From a virus: a stretch of 24,874 nucleotides of DNA. The position numbers and the translations under genes were made by a program. How positions within the stretch are numbered: the stretch's first letter is position 1; each line of letters begins with the position of its first letter. Shown one piece after another: positions 1,732 to 23,154 of this stretch. The stretch is taken from positions 1-24,874 of IMG/VR virus record IMGVR_UViG_3300025264_000105. One strand, written 5' to 3'. The notes beneath the pieces were generated by a model. The model was given only the letters and a program-made list of their open reading frames with translations. It was not told the origin of the DNA and did not search any database.

Positions 1732-2958
1732 TTAATAGAGCGTACCAGAAATATCTATCTGATTTGGTGTTGGAGTTCCCTGCATAATCTTCCATAAATC
1801 TTCAAATTCTTTCGGTCCTTGGTCTATCCTAAGAGGTGCGGCACGAGCTGGCGCAATGAGCTGTAAAGGTGTAGTTGCGGCGGGTTGCTGTATGGGTGCA
1901 ACGGGTTGCTGTGAAGCAACGGCACCCGCACGTGGATCAGGTCTAAATAGGTTTTGTATTGGACCTTTTACATATTGCTGAAAAACCTTTTTAGCATAGC
2001 CTTCCGGGTCTAAATGTATGTTTGAACTGGTATATACATCTCGAGGAACATTAAAAGAAGTATCTCTAGGTGATGTATCCCAACCAGCTAGTTTAGATAA
2101 TGTTTGATTATCATCAAAGAAGGTATTATAAGCGTCTAACGCTCCTGTAGCAGCTCTGGCTATTGGTGCAAATCGTGAATACGGTCCAATCAAACTTAAT
2201 GCACCGCCTACTGGATCACCCTTTGCTATGCCTGTACCTAGTCCATAGAGTGCGCCAAGTGCGGGATTTATAGCATAAGCAAGAGTACTTAGAACGGGCG
2301 CGTCGAAAGGGTCAAATTCTGTACCTTCATAAAAACCTTCATTAGGATCAAATTCTACAGGCGATTGAAAACCAAACAATCCAGCGATATCAGACCCTAT
2401 GTCTTGACTGCCCTTATAAGCATCAATATAAGATTGTGCTAACGCATTTTGAGATAATGTAGAAGGAGCCAAATTGGTCGTTAATAAAGCCGGATCATGG
2501 CGACCTGTTCGAAACCCTGTTTTAAGGAGTTCCCTAATATCTTCACTTTGTTTTAGAGAAGGATCATCTAAAGAATGTACGCCATAACCAAACCGAGGCG
2601 CAAAACCCATTTCCTCTGGAGTTAGCCCACTCTTTTCTTGACCCGGTATTCCTATAATTCCACGAGCTATCATATCGGCATACGGGTCAGTTCTAACCAT
2701 AGTTGCTGCGGCTTGACCCATATGCTGTTCAACTTGATCTTCAGTCATTTCCCCAGCATCAACTAAACCACTAAAGTCTTCCGGTGTGGGAAGAGAATCA
2801 TCTTGTGGGTCGTCTTGACCATATTCCCCGCCACCGCCACCATCGTCACCATCACCGCCAAAGCAATAGTGCTTTAATTGATACTGGTCAAAACCATATG
2901 CTTCCAAAGGATTTGGATTAAACCAGCCGTCAGACCACATGCCTCTAGGGTTATACAT
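1732..2958 (-). CDS. Putative internal virion protein with Gly-rich N-terminus and hydrophobic segment (408 aa)
   Basis: I do not recognise a named family. The N-terminal 60 residues are aromatic then very Gly/Asp-rich, including GGDGDDGGGGG (34-44), which contains one GGxGxD-like element. Residues 55-215 are acidic and mostly polar. Residues 220-272 are a hydrophobic Ala/Gly/Leu-rich stretch (VLSTLAYAINPALGALYGLG, GGALSLIGPYSRFAPIARAA) with one lysine, K246. The C-terminal region is Pro/Gln/Ala-rich (PVAPIQQPAATTPLQLIAPA). Composition and position among late structural genes suggest an internal or ejected virion protein able to touch a membrane. The ATG overlaps the acyltransferase stop by 8 nt, so the two are probably co-translated. 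Confidence 0.72.
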   Translation of the reverse strand: MYNPRGMWSDGWFNPNPLEAYGFDQYQLKHYCFGGDGDDGGGGGEYGQDDPQDDSLPTPEDFSGLVDAGEMTEDQVEQHMGQAAATMVRTDPYADMIARGIIGIPGQEKSGLTPEEMGFAPRFGYGVHSLDDPSLKQSEDIRELLKTGFRTGRHDPALLTTNLAPSTLSQNALAQSYIDAYKGSQDIGSDIAGLFGFQSPVEFDPNEGFYEGTEFDPFDAPVLSTLAYAINPALGALYGLGTGIAKGDPVGGALSLIGPYSRFAPIARAATGALDAYNTFFDDNQTLSKLAGWDTSPRDTSFNVPRDVYTSSNIHLDPEGYAKKVFQQYVKGPIQNLFRPDPRAGAVASQQPVAPIQQPAATTPLQLIAPARAAPLRIDQGPKEFEDLWKIMQGTPTPNQIDISGTLY

Positions 2959-3385
2959 GGACTATTTTAATCCCTAATTTATTAGGATTTTTTGCCCTGT
3001 GCCAATAAGCACGGTCAATGATGGGTTCAAACTTTTCCCTTAGGTAACGGATGATTTTTCTAGGGCTATAATCCATAGCTATTACATCTATGACCCAAAA
3101 TTGGTCGCCGACATTCCAATCCGATGCCTGTAGTCGTCGCTGGCGTGTCACATACCCGAATGCCGTAGTGTTGGTAAGCCATGCCCACGAGACGAACCCT
3201 GCTGGCTTATTCTGAACCTTGAACAATTCAAACTGATTTAATTGTAGTGGCGGTACAACCAATCGCTTTAAATCAGTCACCGTATAACCTTTATGCGTGG
3301 GAGAATTTGCCATAAGGTCCACAACATCACAAAAGTCTTGTTGACTATAGGTTGGCTCGTTCAAATAACTTACAGCATTTAGCAT
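2951..3385 (-). CDS. HlyC-like toxin-activating lysine acyltransferase
   Basis: A 144-residue protein that fits the RTX toxin-activating acyltransferase family (HlyC/ApxC, Pfam PF02794 from memory), which moves a fatty acyl chain from acyl carrier protein to a lysine of a toxin. Visible family features in order: NSPTHKG (H31 at the place of HlyC His23), LKRLVVPPLQLNQFELFKV, KPAGFVSWAWLT (62-71), SDWNVGDQFWVIDVIA (88-103, D100 at the place of HlyC Asp92). The His-Asp distance is 69 in both. It is shorter than HlyC (about 170 residues) at the C-terminus. No RTX toxin is nearby; it overlaps the next virion-type gene by 8 nt. Its likely substrate is therefore a phage or host protein. No clear Shine-Dalgarno. 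Confidence 0.88.
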   Translation of the reverse strand: MLNAVSYLNEPTYSQQDFCDVVDLMANSPTHKGYTVTDLKRLVVPPLQLNQFELFKVQNKPAGFVSWAWLTNTTAFGYVTRQRRLQASDWNVGDQFWVIDVIAMDYSPRKIIRYLREKFEPIIDRAYWHRAKNPNKLGIKIVHV

Positions 3386-3400
3386 AAGAGGTAAATCTGC

Positions 3401-3664
3401 TTATCTTCCTAAGAGACCACGGTCTTTCATTTGTGTAATCAATGTACCTAAAACATCAGCCACTTCAGCAAGGGTTGTAGAATCTGCATCAAGTACGGTA
3501 TCGGCTGTTACATTGCTTACTTGCCAGCCTTCTCCAATAGCCCGTGATAAAAGCTGGTGAATTAAATCCAGACGATCAATAAGCTGTATCATATAATCAG
3601 GTTCATAGGTTTCAGGCGGTGTTGGTAACGGACCAATTGTACCAATAGTTGTATCTATAGTCAT
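3401..3664 (-). CDS. Small conserved structural-module protein (87 aa)
   Basis: An 87-residue acidic protein coupled to the nozzle gene by a four-base ATGA overlap. The start is Pro-rich (GPLPTPPETYEPDY), followed by a helix (MIQLIDRLDLIHQLLSRAIG) and a C-terminal segment TTLAEVADVLGTLITQMKDR. Small proteins with the ending LxxVLGTLIxxL occur next to nozzle genes in marine phages as I recall, with no known function. No membrane span or cysteine is present. It may be a virion component or an assembly factor. Confidence 0.72.
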   Translation of the reverse strand: MTIDTTIGTIGPLPTPPETYEPDYMIQLIDRLDLIHQLLSRAIGEGWQVSNVTADTVLDADSTTLAEVADVLGTLITQMKDRGLLGR

Positions 3665-5661
3665 CGTTTACCATCCGCCGTGAATTGGAACCGAGTATGC
3701 CCAAATCGCCAATATGTTTGTCCTGTAGAACTTACCTTTAAACGAAGCTGTCGGCCCTTTGCCCGTAGGCTAAGTTTTTCCGTCGTTGAGAATAAATCAT
3801 ACGGACCTTTTGTAACTTCAGTTGAATTGGGGTACTTACGAGTATACAGTGTAATTTGCGGTGTGCCAGATACATCCGGAATAACTTTATCTACCAACAG
3901 CATGGCATCACCGGCTTCACCTAATTCTAAAGCGCCACACTCAACATAACTGGTTATATCAGAACCGTTGTCGCTTCTACCGTTTTCTTGATAATAGACA
4001 TTGCCGCTAGAATCAGTAGTAGTTGGGAATAACAGCCAGTCTTCATCATCAATCCAAACATTTCGATCTAAGCTGCCGACAAACCATTCATTTGTCGTAT
4101 AATTAAGAGCCACATAACGATCAGGACTCGTAGCTTCAGAGCTAGGGTAAAACCACCAGATTTCTGTAAACTTACGATTCGTCCCACCAAAGGAAATATT
4201 TTGGAAATCATCATTTAAATCGTCAAAAACGAAATCACGAACAGGACAAGGAATCGGTTGAACTCTTCCAGAATAAATATAAAAATGTCCACAGCCCATC
4301 CAATACACAGCACCATTAATTTCTACTGCCGCGTTTTGTCCTACGGGCGCACAAGAAGTTGCTATAGCTCTAAATCCAAAGGTATACGGAGGACCTTGAA
4401 AAACCATACCGAACAGAGCTTCATCAGTAAAAATTAAAATCTGATCTCTTGTCTGTTGAATAGCTATAACTCTATGTCCTACTTCCAACCGCTGTGACCC
4501 AGCCGTATTGGTAGCCGAAGCCGACCATGTAGTATTAGCCTCTTGGCTTGACCACTTTACTAAAAGTGGATCATCATCAGCACCAAAACAGATAACATGC
4601 CTATCTGGAACAGAAACCAGACTCAATAAAGCGTTAGTAGGCGCATTACTAAGTGCAATAGCTCTTGTATCTGTACCGTTTGTTGCATCCCATATATAGG
4701 TACCGCCATCACGACGAGTAGCTATTAAATCTTCGCCCCATAAAGTAAATGACCACAACGAGGGTTCTAATACAACCGTAGAAGAAGAAACAGCCGCCGC
4801 AGAACCCCAACCAAATATTAAGGTCGCCTTGCCAGCAGAACCATAGGAAGTGAAACTAGACGTATTGGTACCAGACAATTCAAACGTGTTAGTCGTTACA
4901 TTTGCTGTGGTGTAATAATTACCATTAACCTCAACCATTCCAACCACTTCGGTTAATTTTACTAAATCACCGTTACTAAATCCATGTGCGGTAGCGGTAA
5001 CAACTCCTGGATTAGCTTGTGTAAGACCACTTACAGTTTTTTGCGTGATAGGTGAACCTTCACGATAACTGCCCCATGTATCTATACCCCAACCAAGGCC
5101 TCTTGCTCCAGGTTCAGCACCATTAGAAATCAAATAAGTAGCGGTTACACTACTACCTCCAGTAGCAGTGCTAGAAGCATTACTAGAAAATGTGATGGTA
5201 TAGGTATTTTCATCTACAAAAGTTAAAACAAATTCACCTGTAATTGTTATTCCACCTACAGCACTTGACCCAGTAAATACAACATAGTCTCCATCATTTG
5301 CACCATGAGCAACATCTGCCACTGAGACTGTGGGACTACCGCTTGAAGTTGTGAAAGGATTGGTTAAACTTGCCGTAGCACGAATTGGCGTTATGTCATA
5401 AATTGTATCGTTAAAAACTAAATGAATCTTCTTTTCTGTACCTATAGCTAAAAGTTGATCTCCATTTAAATTACTCCAAGCCTGTAATTGACTGGGTATA
5501 CCAGTAGCAGACCAGTTTGCTTCTTTTAGCCACCCTCCAATCGGTTCGGGCAACCCTTGTTGAAACCTAACTTTATCACTATCAATCCATTTACCGTCTA
5601 TAGCGTAATCAGAACGATCTTTAAATACACCTCCTGGAATTTTTAATTTTTGAAGCGGCAT
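3661..5661 (-). CDS. Tail nozzle / DNA-stabilisation-like protein with FCCH-like insertions
   Basis: A 666-residue beta-rich protein starting MPLQKLKIPGGVFKDRSDYA. The body has repeated blade-like strands (LWSFTLWGEDLIATRRDGGT, RHVICFGADDDP, VIAIQQTRDQILIFTDEALF) suggesting the beta-propeller of P22 gp10-type or SU10-type nozzle proteins, which close the short tail and hold in the packaged DNA. Two similar insertions, about residues 98-175 and 207-281, follow the pattern HGxxxGDxVxxT...G...xxxTFxxTY seen in modules annotated in databases as ubiquitin-activating E1 FCCH-like. The start overlaps the next upstream... neighbour's frame only at its 3' end: its stop region joins the following gene by ATGA. 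Nozzle function is inferred. Confidence 0.82.
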   Translation of the reverse strand: MPLQKLKIPGGVFKDRSDYAIDGKWIDSDKVRFQQGLPEPIGGWLKEANWSATGIPSQLQAWSNLNGDQLLAIGTEKKIHLVFNDTIYDITPIRATASLTNPFTTSSGSPTVSVADVAHGANDGDYVVFTGSSAVGGITITGEFVLTFVDENTYTITFSSNASSTATGGSSVTATYLISNGAEPGARGLGWGIDTWGSYREGSPITQKTVSGLTQANPGVVTATAHGFSNGDLVKLTEVVGMVEVNGNYYTTANVTTNTFELSGTNTSSFTSYGSAGKATLIFGWGSAAAVSSSTVVLEPSLWSFTLWGEDLIATRRDGGTYIWDATNGTDTRAIALSNAPTNALLSLVSVPDRHVICFGADDDPLLVKWSSQEANTTWSASATNTAGSQRLEVGHRVIAIQQTRDQILIFTDEALFGMVFQGPPYTFGFRAIATSCAPVGQNAAVEINGAVYWMGCGHFYIYSGRVQPIPCPVRDFVFDDLNDDFQNISFGGTNRKFTEIWWFYPSSEATSPDRYVALNYTTNEWFVGSLDRNVWIDDEDWLLFPTTTDSSGNVYYQENGRSDNGSDITSYVECGALELGEAGDAMLLVDKVIPDVSGTPQITLYTRKYPNSTEVTKGPYDLFSTTEKLSLRAKGRQLRLKVSSTGQTYWRFGHTRFQFTADGKR

Positions 5662-11813: not shown

Positions 11814-12434
11814 CTATTGAATCTCTTGATAGTTGCCTTGTACTTCTGTACTTAATTTTTGAGCTTCTGCTTCATAGTCTCCACGCAATTCCGTTCTCAT
11901 TTGTGGATCACGATTTAGAAATATACCAGATTCATACAGAGCAGCCTTAAACAATATATTCGGGTGATTTACACTCAAATATGTTGATGTGTTACTAGCA
12001 CTTAATCTCGTCGGTATTCTAGTATATTTTAACGTGTATGAAAAATTTGTATTTGGGATTGGTCCAACCAAAAAAGTTGTCCCACTGGTTGTGGCAGTCT
12101 GTAGTGCATAAAACTTAGGAGTCCCTGTATTTGTAGAAATCCAATAATCTTCTATATATTCATCAGTTCGTTGTTCCAAGAATGTCTTTACATTACTAAT
12201 TGTCATATATAAATAGCGAATAGCTCTGATATCAGTAGCTGTAGTTGTAAATGAATTGTTGCCACTAGTCATCGTTCCTGTTTCTGATGTCCTGAAATTT
12301 AAAAGGCCAGGAATACTATGAAATACTCTATCTTCCCCACGCGCAATGATATCAGGGATTGCTGCAGAAAATTCAGAAGAATCATCTTCATTCCAATCTT
12401 GTAAAAGAGCTAACACTTCAGCATAAGTGCTCAT
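11814..12434 (-). CDS. SU10-type head-tail adaptor protein
   Basis: A 206-residue protein starting MSTYAEVLALLQDWNEDDS and containing IPDIIARGEDRVFHSIPGL, GTPKFYALQ, a strand LVGPIPNTNFSYTLKYTRIP and a C-terminal helix AALYESGIFLNRDPQMRTELR. The order TYAE helix, IPDxIAxGExR helix, G-x-P-x-x-Y-A, PxP strand, Y-x-x-IP, then a final ALxEAxxFL-like helix matches what I remember of the bacteriophage SU10 adaptor family (Pfam PF24175, number from memory). These proteins connect portal or first adaptor to the tail nozzle in short-tailed phages. Its ATG directly follows the stop of the Zn-ribbon gene. Confidence 0.85.
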   Translation of the reverse strand: MSTYAEVLALLQDWNEDDSSEFSAAIPDIIARGEDRVFHSIPGLLNFRTSETGTMTSGNNSFTTTATDIRAIRYLYMTISNVKTFLEQRTDEYIEDYWISTNTGTPKFYALQTATTSGTTFLVGPIPNTNFSYTLKYTRIPTRLSASNTSTYLSVNHPNILFKAALYESGIFLNRDPQMRTELRGDYEAEAQKLSTEVQGNYQEIQ

Positions 12435-13163: not shown

Positions 13164-13826
13164 CTATGTCGGAATAATCCGTAATGCTGCTTTTTCACCC
13201 TCTTCATCAGAAGCAAAGCCAAAAGAAGTTTCTGCTTGGCTTACTAACATTCCAATTCTAGTTTCAGGGACACCAGGAAGTTTCAAACTAAGTTTTGCCG
13301 CTAACCCTGAACACATGGCTTCTGTCCAACGGTAAGGAATATCAGCATCTTCAAACCCAGCCGTAATGTCTTCTATCTGTGCTAAAGACCAATAAATAAT
13401 CGTATCCGTAGAATTTTCTGGAACAGGCCAAAGATAAATTTGAGGAGTATACTGTCTATCAAAAAAGTATTGATTAGGTTTTCCTTCAGTTGTTTTAGTA
13501 GCCTGAGCATGATAATCAGTCATAGACAACCGCGTTAAAATCGTATCATTATTATCCCTGCGTAACACAGCCGTAAGAATATCTATGGTTCCAACAGGAA
13601 GAGTATATGTGCGAGTAGATTCTGTTAAAGTAAGTGTAGCCTCTGTGGTTGTCCAATAATTAATCCCACGAACAGCCCACTCACTAAATAGAAGATTTAA
13701 ACTACGTCTAGCCGATACAGCAACCTTACGATCAATTAAAGAAGGATCTAACCCACAGCGTTCACAGGCTTCGGTTACTATTTCTTCTACCTCTGGCCTA
13801 TATGTAACTGTTCCAGAAGTCGCCAT
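13164..13826 (-). CDS. Head-tail adaptor, P22 gp4-like (putative)
   Basis: A 220-residue protein with an all-alpha N-terminus (VEEIVTEACERCGLDPSLID, ARRSLNLLFSEWAVRG), a central beta section (YWTTTEATLTLTESTRTYTLP, TPQIYLWPVPEN) and a C-terminal helical part (RWTEAMCSGLAAKLSLKLPG). The helix - LP-x-G strand - YLWPVP - helix plan fits the gp4/gp11-type adaptor that sits under the portal in short-tailed phages and seals the head after packaging. It lies two genes after the capsid gene, among connector genes. Two nucleotides separate its start from the preceding stop. The specific family is inferred from pattern and position; a generic head-completion protein is the alternative. Confidence 0.75.
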   Translation of the reverse strand: MATSGTVTYRPEVEEIVTEACERCGLDPSLIDRKVAVSARRSLNLLFSEWAVRGINYWTTTEATLTLTESTRTYTLPVGTIDILTAVLRRDNNDTILTRLSMTDYHAQATKTTEGKPNQYFFDRQYTPQIYLWPVPENSTDTIIYWSLAQIEDITAGFEDADIPYRWTEAMCSGLAAKLSLKLPGVPETRIGMLVSQAETSFGFASDEEGEKAALRIIPT

Positions 13827-14838: not shown

Positions 14839-14866
14839 GGCGCTTAATGGGAGGGAATTATGCGCC
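14839..14866 (-). terminator. Hairpin spanning the capsid stop codon
   Basis: An inverted repeat with arms GGCGCTTAAT and ATTATGCGCC (plus strand) forms a 10-pair stem with one T-T mismatch and an 8-nt loop GGGAGGGA. It includes the capsid stop codon at 14858-14860. No run of T follows directly, so on its own it is more likely an mRNA-stabilising or processing hairpin than a true terminator. It is followed within 8 nt by a second, perfect hairpin. Confidence 0.5.
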
Positions 14867-15760
14867 AGGAGTTCCGAAAATGCCTCTCCAATCAGTCCAA
14901 CCGAAGCTGTACCGTTCAGAGGTTTTATATCGGATATTCCCGGTCTCAAAATCACCTTCCATTCCTCTGGTTAACGCACGACGCTGGAACATTTTCAAAC
15001 CGTCTGGCACATCTGTCATGACAAACCAGGCGTCTGTGTCGTTGAGTCGATTATTAACCGTGTAGCCTTGCGGGAGGAAACCAGCAGAACGCACCGCGTT
15101 AATGTCGTTATCAGCCGTAGCTGTACGAAGCGTTGATGCTGTCAATCTTTCCGCAATAAAAGCCAGAGCAGTCGGGATAACAAGTTTTGTCCCCATAGCC
15201 GCAATCGGAATACCCCGATCATCGTCCATATTGGAGATATTAATCAACACTTGTTCCAAACTGGTTTCAGTCAGGTCAGCTGCGGTAGCCAAAATATTAG
15301 ATTGATTACCGGCACCTGTCGGGTGAGTAGTTACACCAAGGTACTGACCATCGCCGCCAGTGCCAGATGTAAACATGTTGTTTAGGATAGTAGAAGCTTT
15401 GATCTCTTTCGTATGTACCATACTACGAGCCAAGGCTTTTACATATCGCTGACCAATTGAACCATATTGACCATCCTCTTCAGCTTCTTCCGTAATAGAA
15501 AAGGCCAAAGCAATAGTCTCATGGTTATACCGAGCCGTCCAGAGTTCAGCAGCCGTATCGTATGCGACCGCACTGCCTTCCGCTTTTACGGAAGCAGCTC
15601 CGAAACCTTCAAGCAGATTATCTTCCTCAAACGCTTTTGAAGAAGTATTCTGTGCAAAGATTTCTTTCCACTGTTCTGGATAGCGTGAATGCTCAAGACC
15701 AAAAAGAGTATTAAGTCCAGGCTCAAGCTGTTTAGCAAACAGTGCTCTATTCATGGCCAT
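14858..15760 (-). CDS. Major capsid protein (HK97-fold type)
   Basis: A 300-residue protein in the expected capsid position after scaffold and decoration genes. The N-terminus (MAMNRALFAKQLEPGLNTLF) is helical. Further segments include an E-rich loop region near residue 95 (SITEEAEEDGQYGSIGQRYV), GDGQYLGVTTHPTG and LVIPTALAFIAERL. The end reads YSFGWTDWRGIFGTPGA, which I recognise from capsid proteins of marine tailed phages. It is somewhat reminiscent of Mu gpT-like capsid proteins, but that family link is uncertain. There is no long N-terminal delta domain, so a separate scaffold (the gene at 16826-17704) makes sense. Two hairpins follow the stop codon. The first ATG is preferred over the second (codon 3) because of its AAGGAG spacing. 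Confidence 0.9.
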   Translation of the reverse strand: MAMNRALFAKQLEPGLNTLFGLEHSRYPEQWKEIFAQNTSSKAFEEDNLLEGFGAASVKAEGSAVAYDTAAELWTARYNHETIALAFSITEEAEEDGQYGSIGQRYVKALARSMVHTKEIKASTILNNMFTSGTGGDGQYLGVTTHPTGAGNQSNILATAADLTETSLEQVLINISNMDDDRGIPIAAMGTKLVIPTALAFIAERLTASTLRTATADNDINAVRSAGFLPQGYTVNNRLNDTDAWFVMTDVPDGLKMFQRRALTRGMEGDFETGNIRYKTSERYSFGWTDWRGIFGTPGA

Positions 15761-17743: not shown

Positions 17744-18100
17744 TCAGGCGTAAACTTTTATTACAGTTGGATCTTGAACAACAGCAATAATTTCATCATC
17801 ATTGATAAAACGGTATTCCTTATCCTGTATATCCATTCTAAATTGAGTGAATTTAGGAACAATAATCCAATCGCCAACTTTTGCCCAAGCGCCAGAAGAC
17901 CAGGGCTTGCCAGTTTCACGATCTTTCCAAGCCATCGGTCCAACTGCTACCAACTTGGCGCAAATGCTCAGATAGTTTTCTGCTTCTATAGCCTGATCAG
18001 GCAAAAGAATACCACCGTCTGTTTTTTCTTTTGGTTTGGGCTTTTCAATCAAAAGTTTCCAACCTTGCGGCTGCGGTAATACTCCATTCATTTTGGTCAT
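17744..18100 (-). CDS. GroES-like co-chaperonin (Cpn10 family)
   Basis: A 118-residue protein with the Cpn10 layout: an N-terminal strand GWKLLIEKP, a mobile-loop-like segment with GGILLPD (residues 29-35), AKLVAVGP, then VGDWIIVPKFTQ and a C-terminal strand DDEIIAVV. Host GroES is about 95-100 residues; the extra length is in the N-terminus and in an insertion around MAWKDRETGKPWSSG. Phage co-chaperonins such as T4 gp31 replace GroES on the host GroEL to fold the capsid protein, and this gene lies just upstream of scaffold and capsid genes, fitting that role. No GroEL is present in the window, so it would have to use the host chaperonin. The start overlaps the preceding stop (ATGA). Confidence 0.88.
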   Translation of the reverse strand: MTKMNGVLPQPQGWKLLIEKPKPKEKTDGGILLPDQAIEAENYLSICAKLVAVGPMAWKDRETGKPWSSGAWAKVGDWIIVPKFTQFRMDIQDKEYRFINDDEIIAVVQDPTVIKVYA

Positions 18101-18297
18101 GCTTGGTCCTCCTCATTTAAAGTACGAACAGTTTCATCAATAGAGGTGATTGCCATTTCAATTCCCGATATAGTCCCCACTTTACGAGAATACTCAATGA
18201 AATCACCACAACCACCAGAACCCATGTGTTGTTCTATGAGTTCTTGTTCTTTACGCAAGTTTTCTTGTAGCTTGCGTAAAAATTCCCCTATAACCAT
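18097..18297 (-). CDS. Small helical hypothetical protein before GroES (66 aa)
   Basis: A 66-residue mostly helical protein: an amphipathic charged N-terminus (FLRKLQENLRKEQELIEQH), a Gly/Cys turn (GSGGCGDFIEYSRKVG), then a second helix. Short proteins with a similar EYSRKVG-type segment are, as I recall, frequent in head regions of metagenomic phages, but I know of no assigned function. The start is preceded by GAGAGAAG. Its stop overlaps the start of the co-chaperonin gene by four bases (ATGA), implying coupled translation. It could act with the co-chaperonin or scaffold, but nothing in the sequence demonstrates that. Confidence 0.7.
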   Translation of the reverse strand: MVIGEFLRKLQENLRKEQELIEQHMGSGGCGDFIEYSRKVGTISGIEMAITSIDETVRTLNEEDQA

Positions 18298-18326: not shown

Positions 18327-19652
18327 CTACTTCTGGTTAGCTATATCTTTCATAAAACCCGTCAATTTTTTATTAAGGGCTTTATTTTTTTCTGCAATTC
18401 TCAACAAGGCGTCTACAGCAGCTTTTTCTTTTGGGGGAAGAATAGTAAGATAATCTAAGGATTTAGCTAAACTCGGCTTGCCTATACCCTTCTGAGCTCC
18501 AGCTGTCAGAGCAAGATATAACCGACCTACTGCATCTTGCTTTTTTCGCTGACTCATTCCACCAAATATTTTTGGGAATTCCTTATTAGCAGCTTTCAAA
18601 AGCTGACTTGATAAATCTTCTGCTTGCCCACCGAGGGGTCCTCTGGCTCTAGGAGGAACAACATCTAATGCTGATTTTAACGCACGACTAGTTGGAGAAT
18701 CATACCATTCACGACCAGTGCCTAAAGGAGGAGCTTTCGGTTGGGTAAGAAGATCTATCGGTGCTTGGTATTCCCCAGCCATTTTCCTAATGTGAGTGGC
18801 GAGCTCTGCTTCAGTCGGTGCTCTATTAAACTTTGATTCAAAGTTACTGATCAATTTTGGCAACCATGTCCCGGTTCCTGCTCGTCCTGGAGTTTCAGCA
18901 ACTCCATATAAAACCCCAGAAGGTCTAGCTTGCATGTGTAAAACATCACCGGCAAGTTTATCAGTCTCCTTCAATACTGCTCCAGATGGAAGAGTTCCTC
19001 CAGGATGAGTATGAATATTTGTTCCATACTGCGACAATTTTTCTATATCACCAGCTTCAGCGGCGGCTTTTCTCCATTCACTAAATATTTCACCCTTTTT
19101 AATGTCGCGTCTAGGAACCGTCAGTTCGTTAGGTCGAACACCCCAACGATAATGAGGGCCTGGATTTGTTGGATAGGTTAAAGCACTAAATTCTTGTTCA
19201 GGAAAAGAAAACCGATTTACCCCTGCTTGCCCTTTAATTGATAATCCTTCTGGGGCCGCAAGACCCTTACCATATAAAGATTGAAATATACTCTGCAGCA
19301 TCTTGGCGTCAAGTGTTATGCCTTTCTGTGCAGCCCACCTTTGAATCGCTGCGCCCAAATGCTTAGGAATGTGTGGAAGTGCCGTATATCCAACTTTCCG
19401 ACGCGTTACTCCCCAAGGGTCTTGATTACCGGAAGGAACAGGTAAAGGTCTAACGGCTGGATCAACACGCAACCCTGATTGTTGTTGCATTAAAGCTCGG
19501 ATGGCACGTTGTACCTCATCTGATAAACCGGGTTCTGGACCTCTACCTCCTCCTAATATATTTTCTAAAGAAATATCGGGTTCCAATTCATAACTTGGGG
19601 AGTTGAGAATAAATCCTAGCCCCCGCCCGCGTCTCTCTATAGAATGTGGCAT
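18327..19652 (-). CDS. Hypothetical protein with JAMM/JAB-like HTHP motif (441 aa)
   Basis: A 441-residue protein starting in a TAATG overlap. The N-terminal 100 residues are Pro/Gly-rich and look disordered. The centre contains NIHTHPGGTLPS (residues 212-223) followed by D231, then a likely strand GVLYGVAE (246-253). HxHP followed by PS and Asp resembles the zinc site of JAMM/JAB (MPN) metallopeptidases, though the Ser-to-Asp spacing is 8 residues instead of the usual 3. Glu174, Glu188 and Glu192 upstream are candidates for the catalytic Glu. The C-terminal 100 residues are Lys-rich and helical. It sits between portal and scaffold, where many phages carry a prohead protease. A zinc hydrolase role is therefore attractive but unproven; a deaminase-like or DUF4329-like HTHP fold is an alternative. 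Confidence 0.75.
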   Translation of the reverse strand: MPHSIERRGRGLGFILNSPSYELEPDISLENILGGGRGPEPGLSDEVQRAIRALMQQQSGLRVDPAVRPLPVPSGNQDPWGVTRRKVGYTALPHIPKHLGAAIQRWAAQKGITLDAKMLQSIFQSLYGKGLAAPEGLSIKGQAGVNRFSFPEQEFSALTYPTNPGPHYRWGVRPNELTVPRRDIKKGEIFSEWRKAAAEAGDIEKLSQYGTNIHTHPGGTLPSGAVLKETDKLAGDVLHMQARPSGVLYGVAETPGRAGTGTWLPKLISNFESKFNRAPTEAELATHIRKMAGEYQAPIDLLTQPKAPPLGTGREWYDSPTSRALKSALDVVPPRARGPLGGQAEDLSSQLLKAANKEFPKIFGGMSQRKKQDAVGRLYLALTAGAQKGIGKPSLAKSLDYLTILPPKEKAAVDALLRIAEKNKALNKKLTGFMKDIANQK

Positions 19653-19852
19653 TAGACTTGGCCCCCGGTTTGCTCAGAAGCGATCAAGGTTAATGTTTCC
19701 TTGAACCCTTTATCTAACATTTTGGCTGCTTTTGCAAATTTTCTTGGAGAAAGGTCCTTTGGCATGATTTTTCTCCTAGTTAACCAGCTCTTTGCTGCGC
19801 GTATTTCAGCGGCGGTAAGTTGGTTACTTTTTGGCACGAACAGCCTTTGCAA
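19652..19852 (-). CDS. Small helical hypothetical protein (66 aa)
   Basis: A 66-residue protein that I do not recognise. It is basic and predicted helical through most of its length (LTAAEIRAAKSWLTRRK, then PRKFAKAAKMLDKGFKETL), with no cysteine, membrane span or signal peptide. It is sandwiched between two uncharacterised head-region genes: the start overlaps the preceding gene by 29 nt and its stop forms TAATG with the next start. The tight coupling on both sides is the main reason for calling it a gene. A role in head assembly is possible only by position. Confidence 0.6.
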   Translation of the reverse strand: MQRLFVPKSNQLTAAEIRAAKSWLTRRKIMPKDLSPRKFAKAAKMLDKGFKETLTLIASEQTGGQV

Positions 19853-20660
19853 GTGCTTTAATCAATTGTTCCATTTGTTCCTCAGTTTTAATAACACTAT
19901 ATGGCCCATCAAATCCACGTTCTAGCGGAGATAGTGCCTTATGGTCTATACCTTGCCGCAATGCACGAAGCAAATCATCGTTATGTTCTTTGGTCAATGG
20001 GCCACGATTTACAAGAGTGCTTAAATTTTCTTTTTGCTGTGCGGTTGCCCCCATCTTATTTGCTTCGCGTAAGGCTTCATCCTGCAATTTAAGTGCTAAT
20101 TTTTCTTGTTCTGTTTTTGGCTTAATACCAAATGGATTACGAGAGCCAGGAGGCCGAAGTGTTACCGGTAATCGTGGTCCTGTTAGTTGCTTCATTAAGT
20201 TCCAAATTTTATCAACAGGTGCTGATTTTGCTTCTGGCGCTATAGCACCTAATGCTCCTCCTCCGAGTAATGCTGTTAAAGGATGTTTTAGTCCTTGCCA
20301 AGCAGCAGACATACCTTCACCTAAAAGTGAGTTACTAATGCTTGGAAGAAATTGAAGTCCTCCTTTAGCAATTTGGGTACCAATCAGACTCGCTGGACCA
20401 AGTGTTGCGGCTAACGCTGCACCTGTTGGATTACCTCTGCTTAATTCTTCAGCTCCAGTTAACTGCGACAAGCCTTTCGTTATCATTGAAGCTAAAGCGC
20501 CTCCTTGTGATAAAGGACTTAACGGGTCAGCTTGCCGGTTTCCATAAATAGCCTGTCGTTGACGTTCTTTAACGCCAGCCCAATAGTCCTCAAAAAAACC
20601 AGGACCAGAACTCTCTTTCCTAGGAAAATGCGTATGGCGTCTAGCTTCGTATGGCGTCAT
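19824..20660 (-). CDS. Hypothetical protein with Gly/Ala-rich hydrophobic middle (278 aa)
   Basis: I do not recognise this family. The frame is open from 20714, but I prefer the ATG at 20660 (MTPYEARRHTHFPR), which overlaps the portal end by only 20 nt and has AAGG about 12 nt upstream; the longer 296-residue form would overlap the portal by 74 nt. Roughly residues 45-150 are rich in Gly, Ala and Leu and hydrophobic (GAALAATLGPASLIG, LTALLGGGALGAIAPE), with no clean single membrane span. The rest is charged and helical (TEQEKLALKLQDEALREANK; EEQMEQLIKALAKAVRAKK). Position after the portal and composition suggest a virion-internal or membrane-interacting protein, which is inference only. The 3' end overlaps the next gene by 29 nt. 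Confidence 0.7.
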   Translation of the reverse strand: MTPYEARRHTHFPRKESSGPGFFEDYWAGVKERQRQAIYGNRQADPLSPLSQGGALASMITKGLSQLTGAEELSRGNPTGAALAATLGPASLIGTQIAKGGLQFLPSISNSLLGEGMSAAWQGLKHPLTALLGGGALGAIAPEAKSAPVDKIWNLMKQLTGPRLPVTLRPPGSRNPFGIKPKTEQEKLALKLQDEALREANKMGATAQQKENLSTLVNRGPLTKEHNDDLLRALRQGIDHKALSPLERGFDGPYSVIKTEEQMEQLIKALAKAVRAKK

Positions 20661-23154
20661 CTTGAATTTCTGCCTTGGCTTCATTAATAGCAATCTGTGA
20701 AGCCGCCTTTTCACGTTCTACATCTATTAGCGCATCAGCACGTTCACGGGCGAGTTGTATATCAGCCTCTGTTTTAAGAATTAACTGCTGAATTTCAGCA
20801 TCAAGTTCTTTTTCATCCAGTTCCTGCTGGTTTTCGTTACGCAGCTTGTTTTCTTCTATACGGGCCTGAACACGAATACGTTCAATTTCCATATCCATCT
20901 GCGTTTGCGCCATTTTAATCTGCATGTCGAGTTGCGCTTTACGAGTTTTAGCTTCAATATCTGCTTGCGCTTTAGCCTGTGTAGACATGGCCTCGATTTG
21001 GATCATCATTTGCGCTTGTTGCATTGGATCAGGCTGATTTTGCTGCTCGCCAACCGGAGGTGGTGGTGGGCCGATCATGGGTTGTGGATTCTGATTAATA
21101 ATAGTAGCTGCCGCCTGACTAATTTCTGTATCTAGTTCAACGGGCGTTGGCGGCACATCATCATCTTTTCTACCCAGCGGTGGCATAGACGCAGCCATTT
21201 GTGCCTGAAGCATGGTTCTATAATAATAAGCCTGATGTTCTGCTCGGTGGCTCACATACGGCATAAAGAACTGTTGTTGTTGCTCAGGAGGAATGCGCTT
21301 AAACCAATCATCTAATACGGTCATATGCGCCATGTGGTCCTGGTCTTCATATGCTCTAACGGGCCTTCCCATCATCATAAAGGAATTTTCCGTTACAGCA
21401 TCTCGGCGATCACCGCTATCCGGATCTTTAAGTATTTCGTCATAGTTGGGCATCCGAATAGCTTCATACATTCTCTTCAGTGTTTTATATTGGTCATGGA
21501 ATTGCGGAAACTGCGTAGCCATTTGCATCATGGCCTGAGCCTGAGCAATACGCTGCGTTGAACTGAAGGTGTTAGGATCGGAAACGGGAATTATATCAAT
21601 ACGTTCGTCAAAATCAGCCCTAAGAATAACTTCTTGGGTTTTTGTACGATACGGATATCGGTCCGGTAGATAAATGCCATTCAATTTAGCTATCAGCTTG
21701 AATTCTTTACGCTGACTACTATGCAACCGCTTATGAACAGCTGAAAATACTCGGCTGTTTTCCTCCAACAGCGCCATCGTTGTTCCAACAGGCGTGTTTT
21801 GGTTTGCATCGGCAAGATTTGTTTCTACGGTGTTTGCGAACTGCTTGCCCGTTTGAACAACAAACTGAAGAAGAGCCATCATAGTCTGACTAGGCTCTTT
21901 AAACGGCAAAGGCATAATCGCCTTTTTAACGTCATCTACGGCTGCGTCTATATCTGTAAATTCACCAGGGGCAATCTCCATATCGCCGCCCTTAACGCGA
22001 CCCCTTAATTTGAATCCTCCCTGCATATTGGCAAAAGCAGCGGCATCCAGTAGAGCTCGCAATGCTCCGGTGGCGGCTTTACCCAATCCACCAATAATGT
22101 GATACAGGCCGTAACCGTATGGACCCAGCCCCGGCAGGAATTTGTAAGAAACAAACCAAACATTCTTTTTAAACTTAGTATCGCCTTCGTCCCAGTTACG
22201 ACGAATAGCAACAACTTTTTCAGATTCCTTGTGAATCGTAATAACTACGGGTTTTTCCGGTTCATCTTTTTTAGATAAAACATCAGAAAACGTATGAACC
22301 TCTAATAATTCTACAGGCGCATCGTTATCAGCATAAACGGCATCTATACCGTCAATTTCCTGTACGGTTGTTTCTCCTGTAGATTCATCCCGAGTTGGAA
22401 CAGGTAAATAAAAGCCATTTGCTACATATTGATTATATTCATGGCGAGGAACTCGCAGAACATGGGTATACCGTGAAGCTGATTCTAAATCCGTAGCTCC
22501 TGCATCAATAACAAAATCTTCAGCTTGCACAAACCGACTGGTAATTCGCCTAAGATTAATATCAAACCAGCTTTTCTTATATGTTTGACCAACCAGCGGG
22601 AGATGGAACAACATCTGATCAAGATCAGGAAAATATTCCGGCATTTCCTCCGTTAGCTGGTAGTTCATATAGGTAGAAACACGCTCAGCCTGTTTTTGTG
22701 TTTCTTCTGTTGGTTCGCCTAAAATTGTAGTGCCGACTGGGCCTCTGGGCGGGAATAATTCAGTAATAGCCTTGGCCTGAAACTGGGTAGCAGCCTCAGC
22801 AATCATTGGATGAACAACATTGGTCAAACGGCGGCTTTCTCTTGCCCCGCCTTGCGGATCAATTTGCCGTTCATCTGGTTTAAGGGTTTCTAGGCCATGG
22901 GTATAAACTCTAAGCCAGTCCTCACGAGCGTTAACATCATCAGAATAGTCGTCTAAAATAGACGAGGCCAGCCTGTTTTGATCTTCAAGTTCTAATGTTT
23001 CCGCTAAGTTAGCGTCCCATTCCCGTAAATCAAGTTCTTCTATTGTGTCTGGTTCGGGGGTACCTATTAAAAAGCTACCGTCAGGCATTTCCTCCAACGG
23101 CACATTGCTGAGTGTATCTTCAATAAGCTGAAACGGTGGTGCATATTCAGCCAT
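20641..23154 (-). CDS. Portal protein (large, with long C-terminal coiled coil)
   Basis: The 837-residue protein directly after terL is the dodecameric portal, through which DNA enters the head and to which the tail attaches. The middle reads GLGPYGYGLYHIIGGLGKAA and is followed by a helical stretch with DANQNTPVGTTMALLEENSR, typical of large portals of short-tailed phages. A Pro/Gln-rich linker around residues 690-710 (PPTPVELD, PPPPPVGEQQNQPDP) leads into about 125 residues of almost pure charged helix (repeated QA, AQ, IE, KA patterns). That helix would suit a P22-like portal barrel extending into the head. A ribosome-binding site CCTGGAG lies inside the end of terL just before the ATG. 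The P22-type fold is inferred from length and architecture, not proven. Confidence 0.93.
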   Translation of the reverse strand: MAEYAPPFQLIEDTLSNVPLEEMPDGSFLIGTPEPDTIEELDLREWDANLAETLELEDQNRLASSILDDYSDDVNAREDWLRVYTHGLETLKPDERQIDPQGGARESRRLTNVVHPMIAEAATQFQAKAITELFPPRGPVGTTILGEPTEETQKQAERVSTYMNYQLTEEMPEYFPDLDQMLFHLPLVGQTYKKSWFDINLRRITSRFVQAEDFVIDAGATDLESASRYTHVLRVPRHEYNQYVANGFYLPVPTRDESTGETTVQEIDGIDAVYADNDAPVELLEVHTFSDVLSKKDEPEKPVVITIHKESEKVVAIRRNWDEGDTKFKKNVWFVSYKFLPGLGPYGYGLYHIIGGLGKAATGALRALLDAAAFANMQGGFKLRGRVKGGDMEIAPGEFTDIDAAVDDVKKAIMPLPFKEPSQTMMALLQFVVQTGKQFANTVETNLADANQNTPVGTTMALLEENSRVFSAVHKRLHSSQRKEFKLIAKLNGIYLPDRYPYRTKTQEVILRADFDERIDIIPVSDPNTFSSTQRIAQAQAMMQMATQFPQFHDQYKTLKRMYEAIRMPNYDEILKDPDSGDRRDAVTENSFMMMGRPVRAYEDQDHMAHMTVLDDWFKRIPPEQQQQFFMPYVSHRAEHQAYYYRTMLQAQMAASMPPLGRKDDDVPPTPVELDTEISQAAATIINQNPQPMIGPPPPPVGEQQNQPDPMQQAQMMIQIEAMSTQAKAQADIEAKTRKAQLDMQIKMAQTQMDMEIERIRVQARIEENKLRNENQQELDEKELDAEIQQLILKTEADIQLARERADALIDVEREKAASQIAINEAKAEIQDDAIRS

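Follow-up and report, generated by a model that had tools for sequence, protein, structure and literature searches.

Does a gene with a metalloprotease-like zinc motif, lying in a phage morphogenesis operon, encode an enzyme of head maturation? The stretch of viral DNA analysed here, an IMG/VR record 24,874 bases long (the window), raises this question at positions 18327–19652, where a minus-strand ORF (the stop codon counted in the end coordinate) encodes a protein of 441 amino acids. The first-pass annotation read it as a JAMM metalloprotease that would mature the head or remove the scaffold.

The gene and its surroundings

The residues singled out earlier are found where they had been placed: H214-T215-H216-P217 (19002–19013), the candidate zinc-binding pair; S223 (18984–18986); and D231 (18960–18962), the first candidate for the acidic ligand. 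E154, in the sequence EFSAL (19191–19193), is a candidate for the JAMM glutamate, judged from its position relative to the motif. Among 20,000 shuffles of the protein, 22 contained the pattern H[ST]HP and 196 the looser pattern H.H.{4,7}S.{2,12}D. The HTHP motif is above chance expectation and unlikely to be accidental, though by itself it is no proof of fold.

On the minus strand the genes run in the order terminase, portal protein (20641–23154; PHROG 1216, E 5e-34), a 296-residue ORF (19824–20714), a conserved 66-residue ORF (s66a, 19652–19852), the 441-residue gene, a second conserved 66-residue ORF (s66b, 18097–18297), the co-chaperonin GroES (Cpn10; 17744–18100), a scaffold-like protein, two ORFs and the major capsid protein (Mu gpT-like; 14858–15760). 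The label scaffold-like was assigned from position and composition. The gene had been described as lying between portal and scaffold; this holds loosely, with the 296-residue ORF, s66a, s66b and GroES also intervening, and the slot itself is variable. GroES is a conserved anchor of the slot, and the capsid protein is used below as a yardstick. The 296-residue ORF, whose true start may be internal, evolves fast and is the second variable gene of the island. s66a adjoins the 441-residue gene directly upstream and s66b directly downstream. The stop codon of s66a overlaps the start codon of the 441-residue gene (TAATG) in all four lineages of the family (window, L008, L109 and L116), so that translation of the two is probably coupled. 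Across seven aligned relatives s66a shows 51–86% identity and in every case borders the variable slot on its upstream side.

The portal protein is matched in 18 records and the capsid protein in 21, and sequence comparison places the phage lineage beside the Roseobacter phages CRP-901 and CRP-902 and the pelagiphages HTVC023P and HTVC027P. The gene order is that of CRP-901/CRP-902 and HTVC023P-type phages (PMC10149686, PMC9599517), and capsid, portal and GroES are homologous. A homologue of the 441-residue protein, in contrast, is absent: no place resembling it was found in 50,697 phage records (E up to 0.1).

Three further observations concern the rest of the window. A minus-strand gene at 2951–3385 in the late region encodes a 144-residue HlyC-type acyltransferase (PF02794, E 4.8e-25; PHROG 20210, of unknown function) and is adjoined by two ORFs of 331 and 408 residues that match no family. 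Two minus-strand ORFs, at 11814–12434 (E 1.2e-17) and 13164–13826 (E 1.9e-12), match PF24175, the family of the SU10 adaptor, and the tail connector may therefore resemble that of phage SU10. In the 666-residue virion protein encoded at 3661–5661 (minus strand), residues 217–280 match the E1 FCCH model PF16190 (E 1.8e-13); this stretch is perhaps a repeat common to tail proteins.

Motif and putative fold of the family

The portal and s66a were used as anchors in finding diverged relatives. The family falls into four lineages that have diverged from one another and occupy one and the same slot. The window lineage includes copies that are 98–100% identical and carry the same motif in three other IMG/VR samples (L002, L003 and L004). 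The other lineages are represented by L008/L009 together with L096 (28–29% identity to the window protein, blastp E about 2e-23), L116 (27%, E 6e-19) and L108/L109 (28%, E 1e-7). The set viral_contigs holds none beyond these lineages, and the set genome_contigs holds no homologue. Regions outside the motif are retained across the lineages. Between L008 and L116, 26 of the first 30 aligned residues are shared, against 6–17 in each later block of 30 (29 in the last block); this conserved N-terminus might fit a leader or docking segment, and its conservation is weak in the copy of the window. As a separate observation, the gene of L003 is nearly identical to that of the window except close to the N-terminus, where roughly 30 bases (about 19596–19628) are exchanged in frame, with GRGLGFILNSP in the window against KAPPSPTG.

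The JAMM motif of the JAMM/JAB (MPN) domain, exemplified by AfJAMM, is EXnHS/THX7SXXD (PMC300881). L008 reads HTHPGGTPASIQD with EFGGL upstream, and L116 reads HTHPSGGPMSAVD with EFSGL upstream. Both thus carry HTHP-x5-S-x2-D behind EF[GS]GL, with Glu, HTHP, Ser and Asp in the order of the JAMM motif and close to its consensus. The window matches HxHP with H214 and H216 as predicted ligands, and its spacing from HTHP to S223 is that of L008 and L116. L109 reads QSRPGPLIPSEQA with MISRL upstream; Met occupies the Glu position, QSRP replaces HTHP, and with Q, R and Q at the ligand positions no ligand is left. Conservation of HTHP among homologues is divided, the motif being identical in two of the three other lineages and lost in the third.

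The position of the Asp in the window depends on where a gap is placed. MAFFT and BLAST both set it between S223 and D236 (18945–18947). Every single 10-residue deletion of the window protein was scored against L008 and L116. Against L008, the alignment that places D236 opposite the conserved Asp scores 57, with V226 a close second at 53 (a margin of 4 units); against L116, the corresponding scores are 52 and below 47. Replacement of the Asp by V226, as in an initial alignment, is superseded by the D236 alignment. None of the six top-scoring one-gap alignments listed with L008 or L116 favours D231; in the best-scoring ones it falls inside the inserted loop. D236 follows S223 after 12 residues, with about 10 inserted ahead of the conserved Asp position. 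Because the relatives show HTHP-x5-S-x2-D and the upstream EF[GS]GL, the copy in the window looks like, and plausibly is, an inserted version of a JAMM-type motif with D236 as the putative ligand. The earlier description of the motif as divergent or inserted thus stands with respect to the insertion, while its choice of D231 gives way to D236.

The protein kept in L109 without ligands, the insertion in the S-to-D loop of the window and the retention of non-motif regions across lineages would all suit a late protein that is structural or serves in ejection but is no enzyme, and whose JAB-derived domain is degenerating; the window motif would then be a remnant. However, three of the four lineages have the identical HTHP at an overall identity of 27–30%, a pattern suggestive of selection for the site in those lineages, and we consider this reading the less likely one, though by no means negligible.

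The fold was approached through profiles and models. Likeness to known JABs extends to the sequence preceding the His pair, which resembles that of lambda-K-type JABs. Lambda tail protein K, a Prok-JAB protein (PF14464), is likewise a phage late gene and carries HSHP...S..D, but it is a tail gene fused to NlpC/P60, whereas the 441-residue protein, encoded between portal and GroES, shows no match to NlpC/P60. The family also differs from the JAMM consensus in having six rather than seven residues between the second His and the Ser, and the window differs in its extra residues ahead of the Asp. The 441-residue protein matches nothing in Pfam, PHROGs or NCBIfam (each at E up to 1) or in a PDB sequence search; PF14464 and PF14220 are matched in none of 31 records, while the positive control, lambda K, matched PF14464 at 6e-05. 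AlphaFold2 models of the whole window protein (3 rows; mean pLDDT 40.5) and of the L116 core (4 rows; mean pLDDT 42.4) are not interpretable. A core profile built from the window, L008 and L116 aligns weakly with lambda-K-type JABs, at a probability of 9.3% and P 0.0035, the lambda-K set being 7 sequences from 11 loci after the 4 without a motif match were dropped before the test. HTHP, Ser and Asp fall on the JAB columns in this alignment. With HTHP masked, P is 0.016; eight unrelated alignments used as controls give P 0.08–0.62.

The island holds two further proteins with a similar motif. One, of 310 residues, lies just upstream of the portal in L010/L011 (L010:2614–3543) and reads HSHPDRAPFSNQD; the other lies between portal and s66a in L113/L114 (437 residues in L114, 1089–2402) and reads HSHPNDTTFSDPD. 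Both carry HSHP-x5-S-x2-D. Neither shows BLAST similarity to the 441-residue family (profile P 0.0046–0.1), and we did not count them as members, the motif being in common and detectable homology absent. They suggest that JAMM-like proteins may recur in this island. HxHP in two proteins of one region that are unrelated to the family by BLAST may have other causes, and this, with the empty profile and PDB searches and the uninterpretable models, is what could be expected if HTHP had arisen by chance in a differently folded protein with no JAB relationship. Against this, L008 and L116 combine EF[GS]GL, HTHP, Ser and Asp in the right order, and the alignment to lambda-K JABs, though weak, exceeds the controls and falls on the right columns; we regard coincidence as quite improbable, and tentatively assign a JAB/JAMM-like domain to the family.

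Turnover of the slot

The slot was surveyed in the best 80 of 316 s66a relatives together with loci found earlier, at loci carrying both s66a and a downstream anchor; slots under 300 bases were called empty. Of 52 distinct slot sequences, 38 are occupied by other proteins and 6 by the 441-residue family, and the remaining 8 are empty. The gene is also missing from two complete relatives: in Planktothrix phage Pag-Yong1 a single 63-residue ORF separates portal from GroES, and in Alcaligenes phage QDWS535 no ORF lies between the two.

What fills the slot thus changes, whereas the capsid genes flanking it are conserved. Between window and L008 the 441-residue gene is 28% identical and the 296-residue ORF 27%, as compared with 88% for the portal, 86% for s66a, 81% for GroES and 94% for the major capsid protein. 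Between lineages generally the gene stands at 22–30% identity while capsid proteins hold 84–94%. The sharpest comparison is L109 with L116: the 441-residue gene is 22.6% identical and the motif is present only in L116, while s66a is 98% identical (44 residues), GroES 92% and the major capsid protein 93% over a 90-residue stretch.

These data bear on the proposed role in maturing the head or removing the scaffold. In favour of that role, the motif exceeds chance expectation and two homologues have it in full, the gene sits in the morphogenesis operon, and no alternative head protease was identified: the models PF10123 (Mu-type), PF04586 (S78) and PF00574 (Clp) were unmatched in 20 records, 10 of them complete named phages, the PF10123 negative being weak since its control matched in 2 of 14 genomes, none above the cut-off. 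A head protease would be expected to persist with the capsid genes; the gene, however, is missing from 46 of the 52 slots, which are empty or otherwise filled, and from both complete relatives, and it diverges to 22–30% identity beside an almost unchanged capsid. Its site is lost in L109 although the capsid segment and GroES of that lineage are 92–93% like those of L116, which is unexpected for a head protease, whose active site should be kept while its substrates are conserved. On slot turnover, the complete relatives and the ligand loss in L109, we set the head-protease reading aside as very improbable; a role for the 441-residue protein as a head-maturing enzyme is not supported by these comparisons.

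A proposed accessory cargo role

The reading we prefer, at roughly even confidence, is that the gene encodes a late accessory cargo protein that evolves rapidly, is probably either packaged or active early, and bears a tentatively assigned JAB/JAMM-like domain. The gene would be accessory cargo carried between s66a and s66b in the late operon of a lineage related to CRP-901 and HTVC023P. The protein would be made late and enter the virion or act soon after entry, and its putative JAB/JAMM-like zinc fold may be directed at a host or defence component, whether peptide, isopeptide or nucleic acid. An arms race with the host could then account for the rapid divergence of the family and the loss of the metal site, two lineages having the whole motif, the window a version split by an insertion, and the fourth lineage none. 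Fast evolution can also occur in structural genes, which counts against taking it as a mark of cargo.

The neighbours of the slot in relatives are of a cargo type. The region between portal and GroES encodes a PBECR5 nuclease (E 2e-11) and a GNAT protein (E 2e-4) in CRP-902, and an SNase (E 7e-7) in L010. A survey of polyvalent proteins (PMC5512222) regards the larger proteins with PBECR domains, encoded amid virion components, as probably packaged and injected. The 441-residue protein resembles these in being coded among virion genes, near the portal, with PBECR and GNAT neighbours in relatives, but differs in lacking a recognised partner domain: polyvalent proteins join several effector domains in one polypeptide, and Pfam, PHROGs and NCBIfam recognise no domain here. 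RadC, a JAB clade, is listed among the polyvalent domains in the survey, but only in polyvalent proteins of conjugative elements (PMC5512222). From position and neighbours we infer that the 441-residue protein is probably packaged.

A separate feature of this clade is that otherwise different proteins (PBECR5 nuclease, GNAT and unknowns) have in common an N-terminal leader, some 30 residues long and starting with MANPVKGAIGQLGERVID. Its carriers are gp65, gp66, gp68 and gp72 of CRP-902 (L085), gp66 and gp68 of CRP-901 (L089) and the product of 799–2181 in L178. A profile of the leader matches this clade only, plus a weak match in L065. The leader could be a packaging or delivery tag.

Some bacterial anti-phage defences, among them CBASS and Bil, use ubiquitin-like conjugation. 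A more specific form of the cargo reading would make the protein a solo JAMM-type isopeptidase, carried in the virion and delivered with the DNA, that reverses conjugation of this kind, its zinc site being gained, remodelled and lost as hosts change. We give this form only a very small likelihood.

The locus illustrates that operon position can mislead on function: the supposed protease slot would be a cargo slot. For this phage group, the slot marks where fast-changing, probably host-directed proteins are kept. If the JAB-like domain is real, the family offers four natural variants of it (two complete, one inserted and one lost) in otherwise similar phages, and, once the domain is confirmed, their comparison would allow what a phage-carried zinc domain contributes to be assessed.
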